The notes under the pieces are model-generated. The model saw only the letters and a list, made by a program, of their open reading frames with translations. It ran no database searches and was not told the origin of the DNA. A DNA stretch of 64,000 bases from Sphagnum magellanicum (lineage: Eukaryota; Streptophyta; Sphagnopsida; Sphagnales; Sphagnaceae): NCBI GenBank assembly GCA_021904315.1, contig CM038907.1, forward strand, positions 16,809,223-16,873,222, read 5' to 3'. Shown here piece by piece: positions 3,460 through 22,870 of the stretch (the first letter of the stretch is position 1; each line of letters starts with the position of its first letter). The translations under genes were made by a program, and so were the position numbers.

Positions 3460-4200
3460 TCCCTTCCTTCAAGACTCAACCTTTGTCCTATGCCTTTTAG
3501 CTTCCTTGTCAATTGGTGGGATGTCATTACCATCAATAAGCAAGGTTGTTACCGTGCATGGCAACTCTTTAGAATTTCCCGCCAAAATTCCCCATGGTCT
3601 TGGCCTCACCACACCTCCCACCTGGTTCTTTTTTATGCCCATGATGGTAGTAACTAATAGTGCAATTGAATGATGAACCAACAAGCAATAAAAGTCTACC
3701 ATACATGTAACCAAGTCAAAGGGCCAACAAGCAATAAAAGTTTGCCATACATGCAACCAAGTTGAAGCAGATGTTAGTTTTATATTCATTTAGAGGTTTT
3801 CATTAGTTCCCCCCTACAACACTCTACAATCATATGCTAACATTAATAGGTTAAAGACAAGGTCAATAAATTACTTTAATGAAAGATATGTTGCTAATTT
3901 AGTTGAAGCTCCTCAAAAACATGACAACTTTGAAGTTCTTGGTAGAATTATTGAGACTGAAAGAACTTAGCTGTCATGAACCAAAATTTCTGAAAGGAAC
4001 TATTGAGGAGAAAAGGTATGCGGTTGTCATGTATTATAGAGCTTGGCCTTCCAGGTCTATTGTCTTTCCAAATGCTTGGTTTTCATAGGTCTATTTACTC
4101 CTAAATATAATTATAGTTAACTTAGGTCCAAACAATTTTCTTCTAATTATTAACAACATCAAACTACTTTCCAGTTTCCAGTGAAGTCAATGATATTGAA
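3460..4200. other. Gene-free stretch with a 46-bp-period direct repeat
   Basis: No gene is recognised. Two copies of a roughly 39-bp segment beginning CCAACAAGCAATAAAAGT lie at 3678-3716 and 3724-3762. The remainder is probably degraded retrotransposon sequence downstream of the integrase. Confidence 0.5.
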
Positions 4201-6147: not shown

Positions 6148-6654
6148 GGTAGATAATATGTCATGAAAATCCTTCTCTGGCCAAATAATTAATTATCAAT
6201 TCAAAAATTCAGATAACTAATTATTTGATAACTATTTTCCCAGTTTTAGTTTTATGGGGCAAGGTTGAAAAAAATGTAAATAACTAAACTTGGATGTGAG
6301 AAATATTTTTTCCAGGTCATATATTGAGCAATGGGGGTGTGTCTCTTACACATGGACCACCCCTAGTAGGGAGTGAGAGGGATGGTGGGAATTGGAGTGC
6401 ATCCACCATAGGAACCTCCCCCAAAAAAAAAATTCAATAAATTAATAATCATACGTATCCCTTCATTTGTATTTTTTCATTTTTCCTTTGTTCCCAATAT
6501 GTTCCCTTCAAGTTCCCAATGTGTTCCAAATAGCACCTTGCTTTAATCCCATACTAGTGTGAACCTTGTGCATAATGCACAGGTGTGTTATTTCAACAAT
6601 GTTTGGTTGATGTTTTTGGTTTTTTAAAAAAACTTTTCTTTTCAAACAACCGTT

Positions 6655-6870
6655 GGTCCCCCCCTCCCCCAAGTCTTTCACATTTCCCACTCCGGTTCTT
6701 TATCCCATCGACCCCCCCCACCCCGCCCGATCCTTCACATTTCCCACTCCGGTTCTTTAACCCGTTGATCCCCTCGCCCGGTCCTACACATTTCCCACTC
6801 CGGTTCTTTACCCCGTCGATCCCCCCCGCCCGGTCTTTCGCATTTCCCACTCCGGTTCTTTAACCCGTGG
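6655..6870. repeat. 51-bp minisatellite, about 4 units
   Basis: The unit contains CACATTTCCCACTCCGGTTC, then TTTAACCCGTCGATCCCC. The unit length is a multiple of three, so spurious repetitive open frames appear on both strands. These should not be read as a protein. Confidence 0.85.
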
Positions 6871-7524
6871 ATCCCGTCAAGTAGTAGTAGCAGTGGTTTT
6901 TTTCCCTTTTCTTTTTTTTTTGGTCTTTGATGGCCAATTTTGTGATGTCACCAAAGTGACCATCATCCCCAAAAAACAAAAAAAAGAGCCAAATTTGCCA
7001 ACATTACCAAATATGAAAGTTGAAAAAAGAAAAGAAAAAGGGGGTCCTTCCATATTCTTAGCTACCTAATAGAACTTATCATAAAAGTCTAGTGTTTTAG
7101 AATTATTTTTTCCCCAAAATCTGGCCAATTTGAGACCATTTCTTTTTCATGAGAAATCCTGCAGGACGGATGGACGGACGTACGTAAAGCTCTTTCATCC
7201 CATGGCTATTCAACCCTCCCTCAACGCCATCGCTCCGGAATCCAAAACTCCGCCAAAAAAGTAGAATTCTGCTATATTTAACTACTTTCCTAAAAGAACC
7301 GGCGAAGAACCACCGGTTGTGGTCCTTTGAACACACTCTCTCCCTCTCTCTCTCACTGTCCATACCGTTCGGAGTCAGGGGAAGTTACTTTGAACACTCT
7401 CTCTCTCCCACTGTCCGTAGCGAGCGGAGTTAAGGGAGGTTTCATCGTTCCTTGTGCCCCGTGCATAATGCACAGGTGAAATAAAAATCCCACTATCTCC
7501 CAAAACCACAATCTCCCAATCCCA

Positions 7525-7892
7525 CTTACCTACCGACCCACCCACCTACCTACCTATCGACCTACTTACCTACCTACCTACCGACCCACCTATCTACCGA
7601 TCCACCTACGTACGTACCTACCCACCGACCTACCTACCTATCGACTCACCTACCTATCGATCGACCTACCTACCTACCGACCCACCTACCTACCGATCCA
7701 CAACCTACCTACCTACCGATCCACCTACGTACCTACATACCGACCTACCTACCTACCTATCGACCTACCTACCTACCGACCTACCTACCTATCGACCTAC
7801 TTACCGACCTACCTACAAACCGACCTACCTACCTACCTACCTGCCTACCTATTGACCTACCTACCTACCGATCCACCTACCTACCTACTACA
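7525..7892. repeat. Large CTAC/CGAC-type tetranucleotide microsatellite
   Basis: About 370 bp of CCTA/CCGA variants (CTACCTACCGACCCACCTAC and similar) lie within the second repeat unit. There is no coding content. Confidence 0.9.
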
Positions 7893-8476
7893 CTGGAGGG
7901 CAGAAACCTGTATGTTCCCAAATAATTCCCAATAGCACCATTTTTTGACTGATCCTTTATTTTTGTGAGAAGCATGGGTCTGGGTCAAAACCAATTTTTC
8001 TGATTTTGGACAACCATTGGTGAACCCCGTGCATAATGCACAAGTGTATTATTTCAACAATGTTTGGTTGATGCTTTTGGTTTTTAAAAAAAACCTTTTC
8101 TTTTCAAACAACCGTTGGTCCCCCCCCCCCCCCCCTTCGTCGGCCCGGTAAACTGACCCCTGGGGGGCAGTTTCATCCCATCCATGAAATCTCAGAACGG
8201 GGTTTTTTGGATTGCTGCCAAACATTGGTTTCCATGGATCACACTGGGCCAGAGTGACTCAGCACGTGTCCGTGAGCGGAGTTAAGGGAGGCTTCATCGC
8301 ACGACTTCAGGGGCGGCTTCATCGCGCGGAGTTATGGGAGGCTTCATCGTTCCTTTAATATAACTAACTAGTGTGAACCCCGTGCATAATGCACAGGGGT
8401 GTTATTTCAACAATGTTTAGTTACTGTTTTTCATTTTTTAAAAAAACTTTTCTTTTCAAATAATTGTTGGTCCCCC

Positions 8477-8755
8477 CCTCGCCCCGGTCCTTCGCATTTC
8501 CCACTCCGGTTCTTTACCCTGGCCGATCCTTTGCATTTCCCACTCCGGTTCTTTACCCCGTCGATCTCCCCGGCTGGTCCTTCGCATTTCCCACTCTGGT
8601 TTTTTAACCCGTCAATCCCCCTGGCCGGTCCTTCGCATTTCTCACTCCGATTCTTTAACCCGTCGATCCCCCCGACCGATCCTTTGCATTTCTCACTCCA
8701 GTTCTTTAACCCCTCGAGCCCCCCGGCCAGTCCTTCGCATTTCCCACTCCGGTTG
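8477..8755. repeat. 51-bp minisatellite, second copy, about 5-6 units
   Basis: This is the same 51-bp unit as at 6.7 kb, for example GGTCCTTCGCATTTCCCACT followed by CCGGTTCTTTAACCC. Units differ at scattered positions. The long open frames across it are a consequence of the 51-bp period. Confidence 0.85.
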
Positions 8756-9229: not shown

Positions 9230-9955
9230 ATAATAATGTTTTGCCCAAAGTTCTCCCCTTCTCACCTAATAGGTGGGCCAAAGTGGAAGGCACTCCATCT
9301 TTCCATAGAATCTTCTATTTTTGGGAGCCTCCATATTTTCAATTTTCTTTTGCGATGGGCCAATCAAATTGGCCCATTGCAAAAAAAAGAAAAGTTGGAC
9401 TGTGAGGCACCCCCAACCAATTAATATGAAACAAAATTAGTACCAAAGTACTAGGTAGGGTGTTCTTTGCAAGGGGTATTAGCCCAGGCCAAAAATGGTA
9501 GACTAACTCCTTTGGGAAGTGAAATTTCATGCAGCCAATGGGAAGGCCCAAGCATGCATTGAAGGTGCCTTCCTATTAAGTTTGGAGTGGGGGAAGGATT
9601 GTTTTCATTTTTCCCTGGTTCCCAATGTGTTCCCACCATGTTCCCTTTAAGTTCCCAATGGGTTCCCATCAGGTTTTCAATATGTTCCCCAAGTTCCCAA
9701 TGTGTTCCACAACATGTTCTCCATAGCACCCCACTTTTATCCCATATGCTTTGGCAAATGTTGTCCTCCTTCCACCTATACAGCTAGGCCAAAGGCCAGG
9801 AACTGTATACTTCATGATTGAACCTTCTATTTTGGGGAGCATCCATAGTTTCAGATTGTTTGAGTGATGGGGCAAATTGGCTCGTTGCGGAAAGAATAAA
9901 ATTGAACTTGGGAGGCATCTCATCTAATTCGTAGGAGAGGTGAATAGGGGATGTG
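9230..9955. repeat. Dispersed repeat copy (TTCCCAATGTGTTCCC family)
   Basis: It shares long collinear stretches with 22150-22870: GAGGCACCCCCAA, TTAATATGAAA, GCAAGGGGTATTA, GAAATTTCATGCAGCCAATG, then a run of TTCCCAATGTGTTCC variants, then ATCCCATATG and CCACCTATA. A partial copy lies at 6485-6550. It has no open coding frame. Its type (MITE, SINE or LTR remnant) is not established. Confidence 0.75.
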
Positions 9956-10358: not shown

Positions 10359-13300
10359 ATGGATCGCATCCGGCTCATCTGGAGCACACTGGCAATAGCA
10401 AGTTTTGTAGCTCTTTTAGTGGTACTGGGTTGTTGGCTGTGGTGCAAGTACTACAAGCAACAGCAAGTTCTTCCAGGTCCAATGAATTGGCCGTTGCTAG
10501 GTGCTGTGCCAGAGTTGTTGTCGAATTGGGACAGGCTGCACGACTGGTTTCTGGACTATTTTCGCCACACTAGGAGCTTTCGCATTCCTTTCCAGTTGAA
10601 TTTCACAGGAGTGTTCACAGTGGATCCTGCATGTGTGGAGCAATTGTTGAAATCCAAATGTTACAACTACCCAAAGGTACTGATCAAAGCTTTTGCCTCA
10701 TCATGCCTCTTTCCCATACTGCAAGGAACACACTTTTACTATATGCAAATCAGCAGCAGCTCCACATGCTTGAAAACTGTCAAGCAGCCAGTCTCTCACT
10801 ATTTAGATTAGTCCCACTACTGCAGTTTCTATATGAGTTGACTTGTTGCAGAAATCTGTTTTTGGGAAGCTCCAAACTTTTTCCTCTCCCACCCAAACAG
10901 GCATTAATCCTGGCCAGGACTGTTCCTGCAAATCCCAATGCTATCACACTGCAGTGGGACAAACACAACTGTGTATTGCATCTTAGATGATAATGCAAAA
11001 TTGTATAATAGAATGCTGGGAAATCTTTGATCATGTCAATGGGAAACAATTGGTTTGATGTTGCAACACTTGATTGAATCTCATACCAGGACAAAGTTTT
11101 CAAGGGAAATAGTTCTGAAACATGGATTTGCAGTGTGGCACCATGAGAGTATTTGACTGCCTGAACTAACTTCCTCAGGAAATTTTGGTTTGCTGTGTGC
11201 TATGATGTGCTGTGACATGACTTTAGGGACCAGCAAATACTACAATATTTCAAGAGCTACTTGGCCATGGTATATTCAATGTGGATGGTGATGAATGGAA
11301 GCAACAGCGGCGTGTCGCCAGTTTTGAGTTTGCATCATCAGTACTGCGTAATTTCAGCACTGATGTGTTTCAAGAGTGTGCCTTGAAACTCATCTTCCAT
11401 GTGGCCCACAATGCTCAATCCTCAAGCACTTTTGATCTACAGGTGGTGGTGCAGTTTTTCTTATTTGATCCAACAAATCTTTCCTCTCACATTTCTGTAC
11501 TATTCCACCTCTTCTTTCTTGCAACAGATCATGTGTGCATCATCAACCTGGTTTTGTAAGGTAGGAGGATGACCAGTGTCTGTCTGTCTCCTGCAAATGG
11601 TTCTGTAAAATCATGAGATGGAGGGAAAGGGGGGTGGGGGGTGCAGGATCTTTGCATGCGGATGACCCTGGAGACTACTTGCAGAATAGGGTTTGGAGTG
11701 GAGCTTGGCTGCTTGTCAGCTTCTTTGCCAGACATTCCATTTGCAAGATGCTTTGATGATGCCAATTACATCTCTTTCTACCGCTTCACAGATCCATTTT
11801 GGAAACTGAAACAATTCATGTGTGTCGGGAAGGAGAGGGAGCTCAAAAATTGTATGCAGGTGCTTGATAACTTCACCTACAAAGTCATTCAGACACAAAG
11901 GACTGAAATGGCATCAGGTGAATTGTTCAGGCGCACAAAGGTTGGACTCATGCTCTTGATCATGTTTTCACACACACACACACACACATGGTTAGGGTTA
12001 AGGGTTTATTGTACTTTCTCTCTTCCTCCTTTCCTTTCCAATATGGTATAGTTCTGATTTGCCAATGTATGTCAAGAGGGAAATTGTCTTGTACAGGGGA
12101 AGAAACTGATGTTTGGGTGATCTCATAACATACTGCAGATAGTAAGACAAGACCTGTTGTCAAGATTCACACATTTGAGCTCAATGGGTGAAGAGAAGCT
12201 CACAGACAAAACACTCCGTGACATTATTCTCAACTTCATAATTGCTGGACGAGATACTTCGGCAGTAACCCTAACCTGGTTTTTCTATATGATGTCTTGT
12301 CATCCGGAGGTGGCTGACAAAGTGTTTGAAGAGGTTTGTTCAATTGAACAGCCAAACTCGGGTGCCCAAGGTAGGATATTTCATCAATATGTAGCTTTCT
12401 GTACTACTTGGCTGATTGGTTTAATACACATTGTGGATTTTTTCACAGCCAGCTTTTTGCATTTTTGAAGTTCCTGACATTTTTGGAAATGAAATTGTCA
12501 AATGACACTTTGATGCAGAAACTGATACTGACTTTGTAGATTTGGTGGAGGAGGCACAATTTGAAGCATTTGCCAAACTTTTGACATTTGAAACATTAGG
12601 AAAGATGGCATACTTGCAGGCAGCCTTATCAGAGACTCTGCGGCTATTTCCAGCAGTGCCCCTGGTACTGGTTTCTATCCTGTTGTCTTTCTTGTGGTAC
12701 CAAGTAGTTTCATTCCATATGTCTTTTGCATCCATGTAACCCCCAGTCTTTTAACTGTCTTCTGTTTCTGAATCTCCTAACAGTATTTTCAGGCTTTGGG
12801 AATCACTATAAGAGAGGCTCTATAATCCATAATCTTATGAGAAAGTCAGCTTCCAAAAGTGTTAGGCTTAGGGTATCAGATTAAGCCTACATTTGCTTGG
12901 AATTTTTTTCCATAGACAGTAAAGTTTTGTTGTCCAAGGTCTGGGGTGAAAAGGATGATCACCTCCAACCTGGTATCGACACAAAGACAAGGTGTTCTTT
13001 CCAACAGATATCTCAATGAACACAGGCCTTCACATTTTTCATCTTTGAGGAAATGAAAAGGACAAGTAAGCAAGGAATTGAAGAGAGCTAGACATTTGGA
13101 AATTTCAGCTAGGGGATGTAATTGCTTGAAGAGAGTGAAACATTTGGTGAATTTCAGATATTGAAGTCTGAAATACTGTATGGGAGATGCTAATCAATAC
13201 ACTGTTGTGATCTTTGTGGTGGCAGAACAGCAAGCAAGCAATAGCAGATGATGTGTTACCTGATGGCACAGTGGTTAAGAAAGGATGGGTTCTTGGGTAT

Positions 13301-16107: not shown

Positions 16108-17367
<1,260 letters not shown>

Positions 17368-18360: not shown

Positions 18361-19494
18361 AAAAAGAAATTTTCAGCATTTTGAAAAAAAATCATCGCCA
18401 AAAAAACACACGTGGCCACCCAACCCACACCAACCCGTCTTTGAAGAAGAAAACTTGCATAAGAAATTTTCAATTTTAATCATATTCACAACTTGGTCGG
18501 AAATTGATAGGGGATCTGGTGGCTGTTGGTGCGAGAGCCACCCACCCCCATTTCCAACCTCGTTTATTGCGGTCAAATGCCGTAGTGGGAGTGTTCCCAC
18601 GTGTTTCTTACTTTTCACGATTTGGCCCAAGAATTCAATGCCACATGCACTTAATCTTCAGTCATTTTGTTTCCTTCTGACGGCCAACTGCATGTAGAAC
18701 AAGGGGTGTGTCACACTGTGGCCTTGCCATTTACATCAAAAAGTATCTGAAGGCAAAAGAAGAATTATGAAAATTCAAATATTTCACCATGCAAAAATAT
18801 AATCTTTAAAGAAATCCTCTAAAAGAAACCAAAATCCTTCAAGATACCATCTACTTCTATAATATCTTTGGGTGGTTGTCCTTTCCATCCATCCGTCCCG
18901 TCCTTCTTCCATCCAAGGCAAAAAGGGGAGGGTGCGAGCCCTTCTTAAATTGTAAAACTCCATTGTTTCAGGGAATTACCCATTCCGCCCTATTTACATA
19001 GCACAATAGGTATCCATCCTGTTATGAAGGGGTATTGGCCCATAATAAAAATTTTAGGCAAGCACTGAGGAAGGCTCGGTGTGCAATCAGTGCAGCCAAT
19101 TTTTTCCTTTTTTTGGGTTTTAGGGAGAGGGGAAAAGGGAGAATTTTTTTCTTTTTTCTATTGGGGGTGGGGGTCCCGTCATCCATCCATAGAATGGAGG
19201 AGACAATCATGTGGCAATTTATCTCATAAAAAGGAGGTAGATGCTAGGAGCGACCGACCCCAAGTCGTCCCTAGCAGTAACTATATAAGCAGCCCAAAGG
19301 AGGAGATTCCAACATATCTATTTTGGGGTTGCCTAAAGTTTGATGAATTTTTTTGGTCATAGGCCAATCAAAGATGCCAATTACAAAGGAAAAAAAAATC
19401 AACTTTGGTGGTCTCCACAACTAATGAATATAAGTTACCACAAGATACTACCAAATTCACATACACATAAGGATGAATAGAATGTCACTTCCAA

Positions 19495-19785
19495 ATTAAT
19501 TTCATTCATTCATCCACCTTATCACCTCCAATAACACTCAAAATTTTTCATTTCATTCATTCATTCACCTAATGACTTAAATTAACACTCCAAATTCTCA
19601 TTTCATTCATTTGTTTACATTATAACCTAAGATGACACTCCAATTTGTTGTTTCTTTCATTCATTCATTGACATTATGACTAGAAGATGACACTCCAAAT
19701 TTTCATTCCATTCATTCATTCACCTTATGACCTAAGATGAGACTCCAATTTTTTCATTGCATTCATCCATTTCATTTACTGCATT
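19495..19785. repeat. Tandem TTCATTCATTCA...GACACTCCAA repeats, about five units
   Basis: Units of roughly 53-60 bp consist of ATTCATTCATTCACC, TTATGACCTAAGATGACACT and CCAAATTTT. The mirror image lies at 21209-21499 in the right arm. Confidence 0.8.
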
Positions 19786-19799
19786 CCCTAGCAGTGTTG

Positions 19800-20010
19800 T
19801 TTTTTATTTTATTTTTCTAAGATTTTTTGTTTGTAGCCACAGTGGGGATCTTCCATAGAAAAATGTGGCGACCTTCCTCAAGAAGATTGTGCCAAAATTG
19901 GCTATAAAGCTGGAAATGAAATAAACAATTGTAACCATGCTTTTAAATCTTTGACTACACATTCAAAACCAACCAAATATATTTGATAATTTTGTCTTTT
20001 TTTGCTCCCC
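19800..20010. repeat. TTTGGCTA-family copy inside the left arm
   Basis: It contains TTTGTAGCCACAGTGGGGAT, GAAGATTGTGCCAAAATTGG, CTATAAAGC and TGATAATTTTGTC, in the family order. It ends at a poly-C run. The mirror copy is at about 20984-21194. Confidence 0.7.
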
Positions 20011-20319
20011 CCCCCCCCCCACTTTTGGGGGACTTCATAGTGTCCGAAGGTCATGGGTACCCACTAGTAACTCTATAACTAATCTCAAGTTTCACCACAA
20101 GCCAAAATATCACCTTTCAAAAATCCTTGTATAAAAATAGACCTACTATTACCTTGGGGCCAAAATCCATTAAGCTATTATACTCTATAATGAATTTGAA
20201 CACAATATCCTTGCCTTGGTAGGCAAGGCCAAAAAGAGTTACCTATGACCAGACGCTGTCAGTATAATAGTGGGTCACTTCCCATTTTGGTTGGTGAGGG
20301 CATTACCATTTTCGTACCC

Positions 20320-20600
20320 ATCAGTGTTTTTTTAGAGGAATTTCTGTTTGTTGCTAAAATGGAGATCATTAATTGGGAGATTTAGAAAAAGTGGCGATCA
20401 TGCCTAGGAAGATTCATCCAAATTTGGCTATTAAATACAAATCTTTAATCATCTTTCTATATGTTTGGCTACACAAGGAAAACCACATATATGAATCTGG
20501 CAATTGTTACTTTCTTTTTCCCCTCGCTTCTAGCGATTGTAAAGTTCTATAATCATTGTATTTCGATTTTTTTATTTTGCATTTTGGCGATATATCGCCA
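20320..20600. repeat. TTTGGCTA-family copy in the inverted-repeat spacer
   Basis: GGCGATCATGCCTAGGAAGA is followed by CCAAATTTGGCTATTAAA, GTTTGGCTACACAAGGAAAA, ATCTGGCAATTGTT, and TTTTGGCGATATATCGCCAG at the 3' end. This is the most complete copy in the window. Confidence 0.75.
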
Positions 20601-20925
20601 GTAAAAAGACAGCTGGTATCCATCACCAAAATACTGGGCAAGCACATCAAAAAGTACCCCTGGTTCATAACGGGGTATTAAGTACCCCAAGTTGACGATT
20701 TTTATTTTTATTTTTCAAAATCCATTTTGACTATTTTTTCTAAATTATGAAATTTCGACAATAAATATAGGTAGTTTCTTTAGCAAGTTCTCTTGACTCT
20801 GAGCACCTAGCGTGATGAGGCCTTTTAAAACATTATTTAATATTTCTTTTTCTTTTAGCATAAACAAGGAAACATAACGTTCCATCAATTTACCGAATAG
20901 TGAAATGTTGTTAATTATTTGATAG

Positions 20926-22144
20926 ACTAGTGGGTACCCGTGACCTTCGGACACTATGAAGTCCCCCAAAAGTGGGGGGGGGGGGGGAGCAAAAAAAGAC
21001 AAAATTATCAAATATATTTGGTTGGTTTTGAATGTGTAGTCAAAGATTTAAAAGCATGGTTACAATTGTTTATTTCATTTCCAGCTTTATAGCCAATTTT
21101 GGCACAATCTTCTTGAGGAAGGTCGCCACATTTTTCTATGGAAGATCCCCACTGTGGCTACAAACAAAAAATCTTAGAAAAATAAAATAAAAAACAACAC
21201 TGCTAGGGAATGCAGTAAATGAAATGGATAAATGCAATGAAAAAATTGGAGTCTCATCTTAGGTCATAAGGTGAATGAATGAATGGAATGAAAATTTGGA
21301 GTGTCATCTTCTAGTCATAATGTCAATGAATGAATGAAAGAAACAACAAATTGGAGTGTCATCTTAGGTTATAATGTAAACAAATGAATGAAATGAGAAT
21401 TTGGAGTGTTAATTTAAGTCATTAGGTGAATGAATGAATGAAATGAAAAATTTTGAGTGTTATTGGAGGTGATAAGGTGGATGAATGAATGAAATTAATT
21501 TGGAAGTGACATTCTATTCATCCTTATGTGTATGTGAATTTGGTAGTATCTTGTGGTAACTTATATTCATTAGTTGTGGAGACCACCAAAGTTGATTTTT
21601 TTTCCTTTGTAATTGGCATCTTTGATTGGCCTATGACCAAAAAAATTCATCAAACTTTAGGCAACCCCAAAATAGATATGTTGGAATCTCCTCCTTTGGG
21701 CTGCTTATATAATTACTGCTAGGGACGACCTGGGGTCGGTCGCTCCTAGCATCTACCTCCTTTTTATGAGATAAATTGCCACATGATTGTCTCCTCCATT
21801 CTATGGATGGATGACGGGACCCCCACCCCCAATAGAAAAAAGAAAAAAATTCTCCCTTTTCCCCTCTCCCCAAAACCCAAAAAAAGGAAAAAATTGGCTG
21901 CACTGATTGCACACCGAGCCTTCCTCAGTGCTTGCCTAAAATTTTTATTATGGGCCAATACCCCTTCATAACAGGATGGATACCTATTGTGCTATATAAA
22001 TAGGGTGGAATGGGCAATTCCCTGAAACAATGGAGTTTTACAATTTAAGAAGGGCCCGCACCCTCCCCTCTTTGCCTTGGATGGATGGAAGGACGGGACG
22101 GATGGATGGAAAGGACAACCACCCAAGGATATTATAGAAGTAGA
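20926..22144. repeat. Right arm of the large inverted repeat (1,219 bp)
   Basis: It is the reverse complement of 18850-20068 (see that entry). The immediate flanks (CCA before the left arm, CAT after the right arm) do not form a clear target duplication, so the structure is not obviously one transposon bounded by the arm ends. Confidence 0.92.
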
Positions 22145-22149
22145 CATGC

Positions 22150-22870
22150 TTTTCAATGGTGCTTGGCCTGAAGCAAGGAGCTGATGAGTTTCCACCAATT
22201 TTTTACAATGTTTTTCTTTTGTTCCCAACATGTTCTTTTCAAGTTCCCAATGTGTTCCCAATAGCACCTTGCTTTAATCCCATATGTTTTGCCAAAAGTC
22301 CTCCGCTTCTCATCTATATAGGTGAGCCAAAGGGGGAGGCACTCATTGCAAAAAAAAAAAAAGTTGTACTTGTGAGGCACCCCCAACTAATTAATATGAA
22401 ATAGAATAATAGGTAGGGTGTTATTTGCAAGGGGTATTAACCCAAGCCAAAAATGGTGATGAACTCTTTTGGGAAGAGAAATTTCATGCAGCCAATGGGG
22501 AAGGCCCAATGCATTTAAGGTGCAGTTCTAGTTTTCCTTTTAAGTTTGAGGGGGGTGGGGAATTTTTTTTTCATTTTTCCTTGGTTCCTTATATGTTCTT
22601 TTTAAATTCCCAATGGGTTTTCAATATGTTCAGCAAGTTCGTAATGTGTTCCCCAACATGTTCTCCATAACACCTCACTTTTATCCCATATGTTTTTGGC
22701 AAATGTTGTTTTCCTTCCACTTATATAGGTGGGCTAAAAGGGAGGAACTTTAAATTTTAAAATAGAAACTTCTATTTTGGGAGGGCTTTTGTAGCTTCTT
22801 TTTTTGAGTGATGGGCCAATCAAATCAGCCAATTTAAATTTTAAAAATTTGAAAAAACTTGGAAAGCATT
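22150..22870. repeat. Second copy of the TTCCCAATGTGTTCCC dispersed repeat
   Basis: It is collinear with 9230-9955 (see that entry) and abuts the right arm of the inverted repeat. Shared words include TTAATATGAAA, GTAGGGTGTT, GCAAGGGGTATTA and ATTTCATGCAGCCAATGGG. Confidence 0.75.

Follow-up and report, generated by a model that had tools for sequence, protein, structure and literature searches.

The question raised by this locus is what kind of structure places two nearly identical 1.2-kb sequences in opposite orientation, 857 bp apart. The locus lies in a window of 64,000 nucleotides of Sphagnum magellanicum DNA, the whole stretch analysed here (C1:16809223-16873222, in a genome of 439 Mb and 31 contigs), and positions below refer to this window unless a contig or locus is named. 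The first-pass annotation had described two closely matching, inverted arms of equal length (1,219 bp) with no coding capacity, and had proposed a candidate long hairpin RNA locus. Using BLAST of the window against itself, the arms were confirmed: 18850-20068 aligned with 22144-20926 at 98.85% identity over 1,220 columns, with 12 mismatches, two one-base gaps and an E value of 0.0, and the longest perfect run between the arms was 373 bp. Coding capacity is indeed low, the longest stop-to-stop frame being 97 aa in an arm and 61 aa in the spacer. The inverted repeat is real, ordinary in kind and unusually well resolved, and as a whole it is best explained, at a probability that we put at about 0.78, as two complete copies of a single non-autonomous Helitron, arranged tail to tail.

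Several other features were observed in the surroundings of the pair. A polyubiquitin frame of five units occupies 16108-17367 (− strand), and the left arm begins upstream of it, ~1.5 kb from the 5′ end of the frame; fragments of a cytochrome P450 gene lie at 11617-12468 (+ strand; one of the two matches is below the Pfam cut-off); and 6553-8754 holds direct repeats of 51-52-bp tandem units together with a long TACC array. Together with the polyubiquitin frame and the P450 fragments, 67 WRKY domain matches in the genome, where 14 control genomes gave none, indicate a land plant.

Helitron features of the arms

Canonical Helitrons are described in PMC5148889 as starting with TC and ending with CTRR. 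Both arms start with TCTA and end with CTAG, which is followed by T, and they are delimited as follows.

18850..20067, + strand: left arm, probable non-autonomous Helitron with a nested insert, from 5′ TCTACTTC... to 3′ ...CCCACTAG (identity to the right arm; termini common to family copies)
20927..22144, − strand: right arm, probable second copy of the same Helitron in opposite orientation, 3′ end toward the spacer (arm identity; family termini)

When the left arm was used as a genome query, at least 92 matches were found (best 40 of 832 first-look candidates scored). Twenty loci were fetched, one of which (L009) held the insert only and was left out, and the other 19 yielded the 22 family copies analysed here. 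Because arm positions 1-429 and 936-1219 adjoin in the fetched copies, each arm is an element of ~710 bp carrying an insert of 507 bp. An intact 5′ end was present in 13 of the 22 copies; all 13 start with TCTA, and 12 of them end with CTAG followed by T, the remaining one (L021) ending with CTAA. Several copies are joined head to tail with the junction CTAG|TCTA, and a G precedes the TC in five of the 13 copies with intact 5′ ends, at least three of these five being tandem junctions. Across the genome, the family 3′-end pattern occurred 620 times with up to three mismatches allowed, and the backwards control returned none.

These properties agree with those of canonical (Helitron1-type) non-autonomous plant Helitrons, which likewise start with TC, end with CTAG before a T, lack a target duplication and form tandem copies, and which share their 3′ part with Rep/helicase-coding elements of their own genome. 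Canonical Helitrons are also expected to carry a short hairpin ~10-12 nt before the 3′ end and to insert usually between A and T. The arms differ from them in that the predicted 3′ hairpin is weak (a 4-bp stem, -2.1 kcal/mol, with other folds competing), and in being near-identical neighbours of opposite orientation that both carry one nested insert.

The relation to coding elements was assessed at six coding loci, fetched for a Helitron_like_N match near a family copy and drawn from the part of the family that was scored. At five of the six, long ORFs are followed by a 3′ tail made of element positions 47 to 713 or 723, and at the sixth (L066) the family 3′ end follows the ORFs and is itself followed by a complete tandem copy. 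Among the four ORF pieces scanned, Helitron_like_N was matched in two (one each of L061 and L065) and PIF1 in two (both of L065, one also with Pif1_2B), and one piece was without any match. Genome-wide, at least 150 PF14214 matches exceeded the cut-off (best 150 of 576 candidates scored). Element positions 1-46 were not found in L061-L065, where the 5′ ends of the coding Helitrons may lie outside the fetched stretches. These comparisons show the 3′ part of the arms to be common to Helitrons of the same genome that are predicted, from their ORFs, to be Rep/helicase-coding (autonomous-type).

The 507-bp insert and the repeats that flank it are located as follows.

19279..19785, + strand: nested insert, left copy, with a 51-bp minisatellite; absent from all 22 family copies
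21209..21715 (limits within a base or two), − strand: same nested insert, right copy (converted from genome coordinates)
19269..19278, + strand: CCCTAGCAGT, 10-bp flanking repeat, first copy (11 bp when the T before it is counted)
19786..19795, + strand: CCCTAGCAGT, second copy of the 10-bp flanking repeat

The left insert junction, searched with up to three mismatches, was found at two places in the 439 Mb, both of them the arms. Outside the arms, the only full-length insert among the matches scored was at C12:17703290 (90%), where no flanking duplication was seen by eye. The first ~170 bp of the insert (19279-19450) belong to an abundant repeat matched at 75-81% (best 40 of 318 candidates scored), which starts near a TATA-like CTATATAAG.

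Target sites and spacer

The DNA on either side of each arm was compared with the rest of the genome, and the resulting features are listed in order along the window.

18698..18849, + strand: host repeat 1, left part; a short, abundant repeat interrupted by the left Helitron
20068..20068, + strand: target T after the CTAG of the left copy; the host then continues TAACTCTATAAC (from uninterrupted host copies)
20069..20235, + strand: host repeat 1, right part, within the spacer
20325..20615, + strand: older diverged repeat in the spacer, 79% to C18:17360545
20741..20925, + strand: host repeat 2, left part, split by the right Helitron
20926..20926, − strand: target base of the right copy, T (A when read on the + strand); CATG|T on the element strand
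22145..22203, + strand: host repeat 2, right part (end approximate)

On the left, the segment 20069..20235 had at least 38 genome matches at 90-93% (best 40 of 3,155 first-look candidates scored). The joined left flanks were uninterrupted at all seven loci examined, reading GATATCA|TAACTC or similar, with an extra host copy in one of them (L032) carrying seven additional bases at the junction, and the left insertion site is A|T. On the right, 12 of 41 matches to the joined flanks cross the junction at 72-74% (best 40 of 1,277 candidates scored); six of these 12 loci were fetched and all six are continuous, the window being 1-2 bases longer at the junction. The right insertion likewise has no target duplication, and its target on the element strand is G|T, not the canonical A|T. 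Since uninterrupted versions of two unrelated targets occur elsewhere, each arm is a separate insertion into DNA that was already there.

As judged from its matches, most of the spacer is a mosaic of older repeats. The whole spacer was found at no other place among the matches listed (best 40 of 3,155 candidates scored), and 20392-20585 in the spacer and 19866-19972 in the arm each match the window from 38961 onward at 69-72%.

In L021 (C11:7494700-7497500), a copy of host repeat 1 holds an insert-free Helitron at the left arm's position. This position may be a recurrent target: common ancestry of the left arm and L021 was considered and is not supported, L021 falling outside the arm clade in a tree that is poorly resolved beyond the arm pair.

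Origin of the pair

Each arm diverges by 5-9% from the 22 family copies. In a tree of 24 rows, in which 17 of 21 inner branches are open and the bootstrap is unsettled, the arms form a clade with support 100/100 and a private branch of 0.038. The simplest reading is one end-to-end copying event of an insert-bearing Helitron. An older Helitron copy would first have gained the 507-bp insert; the insert-bearing copy would then have been duplicated end to end by rolling-circle machinery, and the new copy would have inserted again, in the opposite orientation, at a distance of 857 bp. The inner 1.07 kb may later have been partly homogenised by gene conversion.

The chance that one random insertion falls within 2.1 kb is ~1e-5, which points to a local hop. 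Among the best-matching 100 of the 620 family 3′ ends, 15 neighbour pairs lie within 10 kb, compared with 0.23 expected if the ends were uniformly placed. Thirteen of these 15 pairs share orientation, one is tail-to-tail (the arms) and one is divergent; the counts are partial, and at least one further tail-to-tail pair (L026) is missing from them. A hop onto the opposite strand would thus be atypical, because 13 of the 15 listed close pairs have the same orientation. The pair in L026 (1020-1670, + strand, and 3507-4174, − strand; C14:6828100-6833000) is a tail-to-tail pair of the same family, 90% identical and 1.8 kb apart. Also in L026, at 1631-1706, a Helitron 3′ end is immediately adjoined by its own last ~40 bp in inverted orientation, so that a nearly perfect palindrome is centred on ACTAAT.

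Copies of one family lying close together are known from tandem Helitron insertions, which PMC5148889 cites for M. lucifugus, Drosophila, rice and maize. The family of the arms resembles them in also forming head-to-tail joins; the arms themselves differ in being tail-to-tail, 857 bp apart and without a CTAG|TC join. For Fusarium oxysporum, the same paper (PMC5148889) gives a model of composite Helitrons in which one copy is inserted in another in opposite orientation. The arms share with these composites, as there described, the opposite orientation of two copies of one family at one place, and differ in that neither arm is inside the other and each has a separate host repeat.

The differences between the arms were then considered along their length; the MAFFT family alignment misplaces the arms at about positions 49-58, and the pairwise arm alignment was used there. 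As the first-pass annotation had noticed, the differences are concentrated in the outer part: eight of the 14 differing columns (seven substitutions and one gap) fall in the outer 150 bp and six in the other ~1,070, so that divergence is 4.7% in the outer 150 bp and 0.47% in the inner part. Seven or more of the 12 substitutions would fall in the outer 150 bp with P 5.6e-4, taking G/C sites as the denominator and given that the 150-bp boundary was picked after the data had been inspected. Substitution rates in plants are 7e-9 to 1.3e-8, and with these rates the outer 150 bp would correspond to ~1.8-3.3 Myr and the rest to 0.18-0.33 Myr. Partial gene conversion of the inner part after copying, which the first-pass annotation had already proposed, would fit this pattern and is possible, as are local mutation differences or assembly polishing behind the contrast between the outer and inner parts.

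The same contrast bears on the main rival to a single copying event, namely that two independent insertions fell near each other by chance and that gene conversion subsequently overwrote one with the sequence of the other, which included the insert, and acted less on the outer 150 bp. The family is common (620 3′ ends), the 4.7% divergence of the outer 150 bp against 0.47% elsewhere is near the 5-9% of the family, and insertions evened out by conversion would look alike, because homology stops at the element ends either way. On the other hand, features private to both arms also occur in the outer 150 bp, where a ~24-bp deletion and a 2-bp insertion absent from all 22 other copies are found, so that conversion would be needed over nearly the whole element at least once. 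In the same outer 150 bp, the arm substitutions at 104 and 137 are each present in one of the 22 other copies. We therefore regard chance insertion followed by conversion as unlikely, if still the most serious competitor of the copying of one insert-bearing Helitron.

All 12 substitutions between the arms are transitions. Eleven could be polarised, and all 11 are C-to-T or G-to-A, which suggests that the pair is or was cytosine-methylated. By comparison with the family copies, eight were placed on the left arm and one on the right, and two right-arm substitutions inside the insert were polarised against the single C12 copy. The polarity of the left substitution at 18907, which adjoins a gap, is less sure, and the derived bases at 18987, 19263 and 20054 are also present in 4-6 of the 22 family copies. 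The twelfth substitution (18997), which is unpolarised, sits in an insertion absent from the family. Four of the 12 substitutions are in CG or CHG context (by eye), compared with 11% of cytosines (P 0.036).

Hairpin RNA and consequences for the family

The first-pass annotation had also reasoned that transcription through both arms would yield a long double-stranded RNA and possibly siRNAs against a repeat at 9.2 and 22.2 kb. The first part agrees with the predicted fold of the read-through RNA (3,295 nt), which is very stable at an MFE of -2,423 kcal/mol. The second part is not supported, since no 16-, 21- or 24-mer of the arms recurs at 9.0-10.1 kb, at 22.15-22.9 kb, in the spacer or elsewhere in the window. 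The repeat pair at 9375-9875 and 22344-22819 is 77% identical within itself and has no 16-mer in common with the arms. Arm 21- and 24-mers do recur in all of the 22 family copies sampled (median 147 common 21-mers), and siRNA targets, if any, would be Helitron relatives.

A working hairpin locus, in which read-through double-stranded RNA is cut by Dicer-like enzymes and the siRNAs act in trans on related Helitrons, is a reading of use and not of origin, and it is compatible with a pair of Helitrons. The arms are long and nearly perfect, offering a perfect duplex of up to 373 bp; the predicted MFE of -2,423 kcal/mol and the 21- and 24-mers common to the 22 sampled copies point the same way. Against it, two transposon insertions account for the arrangement, the window contains no Rfam family at the gathering score, and the proposed targets at 9.2 and 22.2 kb are without any common 16-mer. 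Rfam and tRNA scans of the window found nothing. We consider this use improbable; as an interpretation, a dedicated hairpin locus gives way to two insertions of a Helitron into separate targets that already existed, and read-through could yield hairpin RNA as a side effect. That one arm is a false inverted copy made in assembly is suggested by the near-identity of the inner arms and is very improbable, given that the two arms stop at Helitron termini within different host repeats, each of which has uninterrupted versions elsewhere, and that the arms differ at 12 sites and two gaps. A single transposon of the foldback or MULE-like type, its 1.2-kb terminal inverted repeats enclosing an 857-bp core, would accommodate equal inverted arms around a spacer and a minisatellite within each arm, and was rejected as barely credible, since no target duplication flanks the whole structure (AAGATACCA versus CATGCTTTT), each arm has its own target, and the spacer contains older repeats and occurs as a whole nowhere else among the matches listed (best 40 of 3,155).

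Endogenous long inverted repeats are known to act as silencers, as in maize Mu killer, which switches off Mutator, and in the soybean CHS inverted repeat. The tail-to-tail Helitron pair has in common with these the long, near-identical arms, the spacer and the potential for double-stranded RNA if transcribed; it differs in that its arms are separate transposon insertions and in being known here from sequence alone. It is conceivable, if a long shot, that a Helitron hopping beside itself on the opposite strand gives rise, by that single event, to a natural hairpin that silences its own family. In the open-licence PMC text searched, which included PMC5148889, PMC13286980 and PMC4067079, near-identical Helitrons placed tail to tail were not found described as a source of hairpins, which is weak evidence of absence. 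If the idea were true, read-through siRNAs would match the family genome-wide, and local hopping would be a self-limiting switch-off of the family.

Apart from any such use, the locus cleanly records how a copy of a plant Helitron, together with its nested cargo, appeared close by and inverted, and both of its targets can be reconstructed. It also cautions against taking every long inverted repeat of a plant genome for a hairpin gene. Helitron pairs of this kind are one route from ordinary transposition to long inverted repeats, and hence to possible sources of double-stranded RNA.
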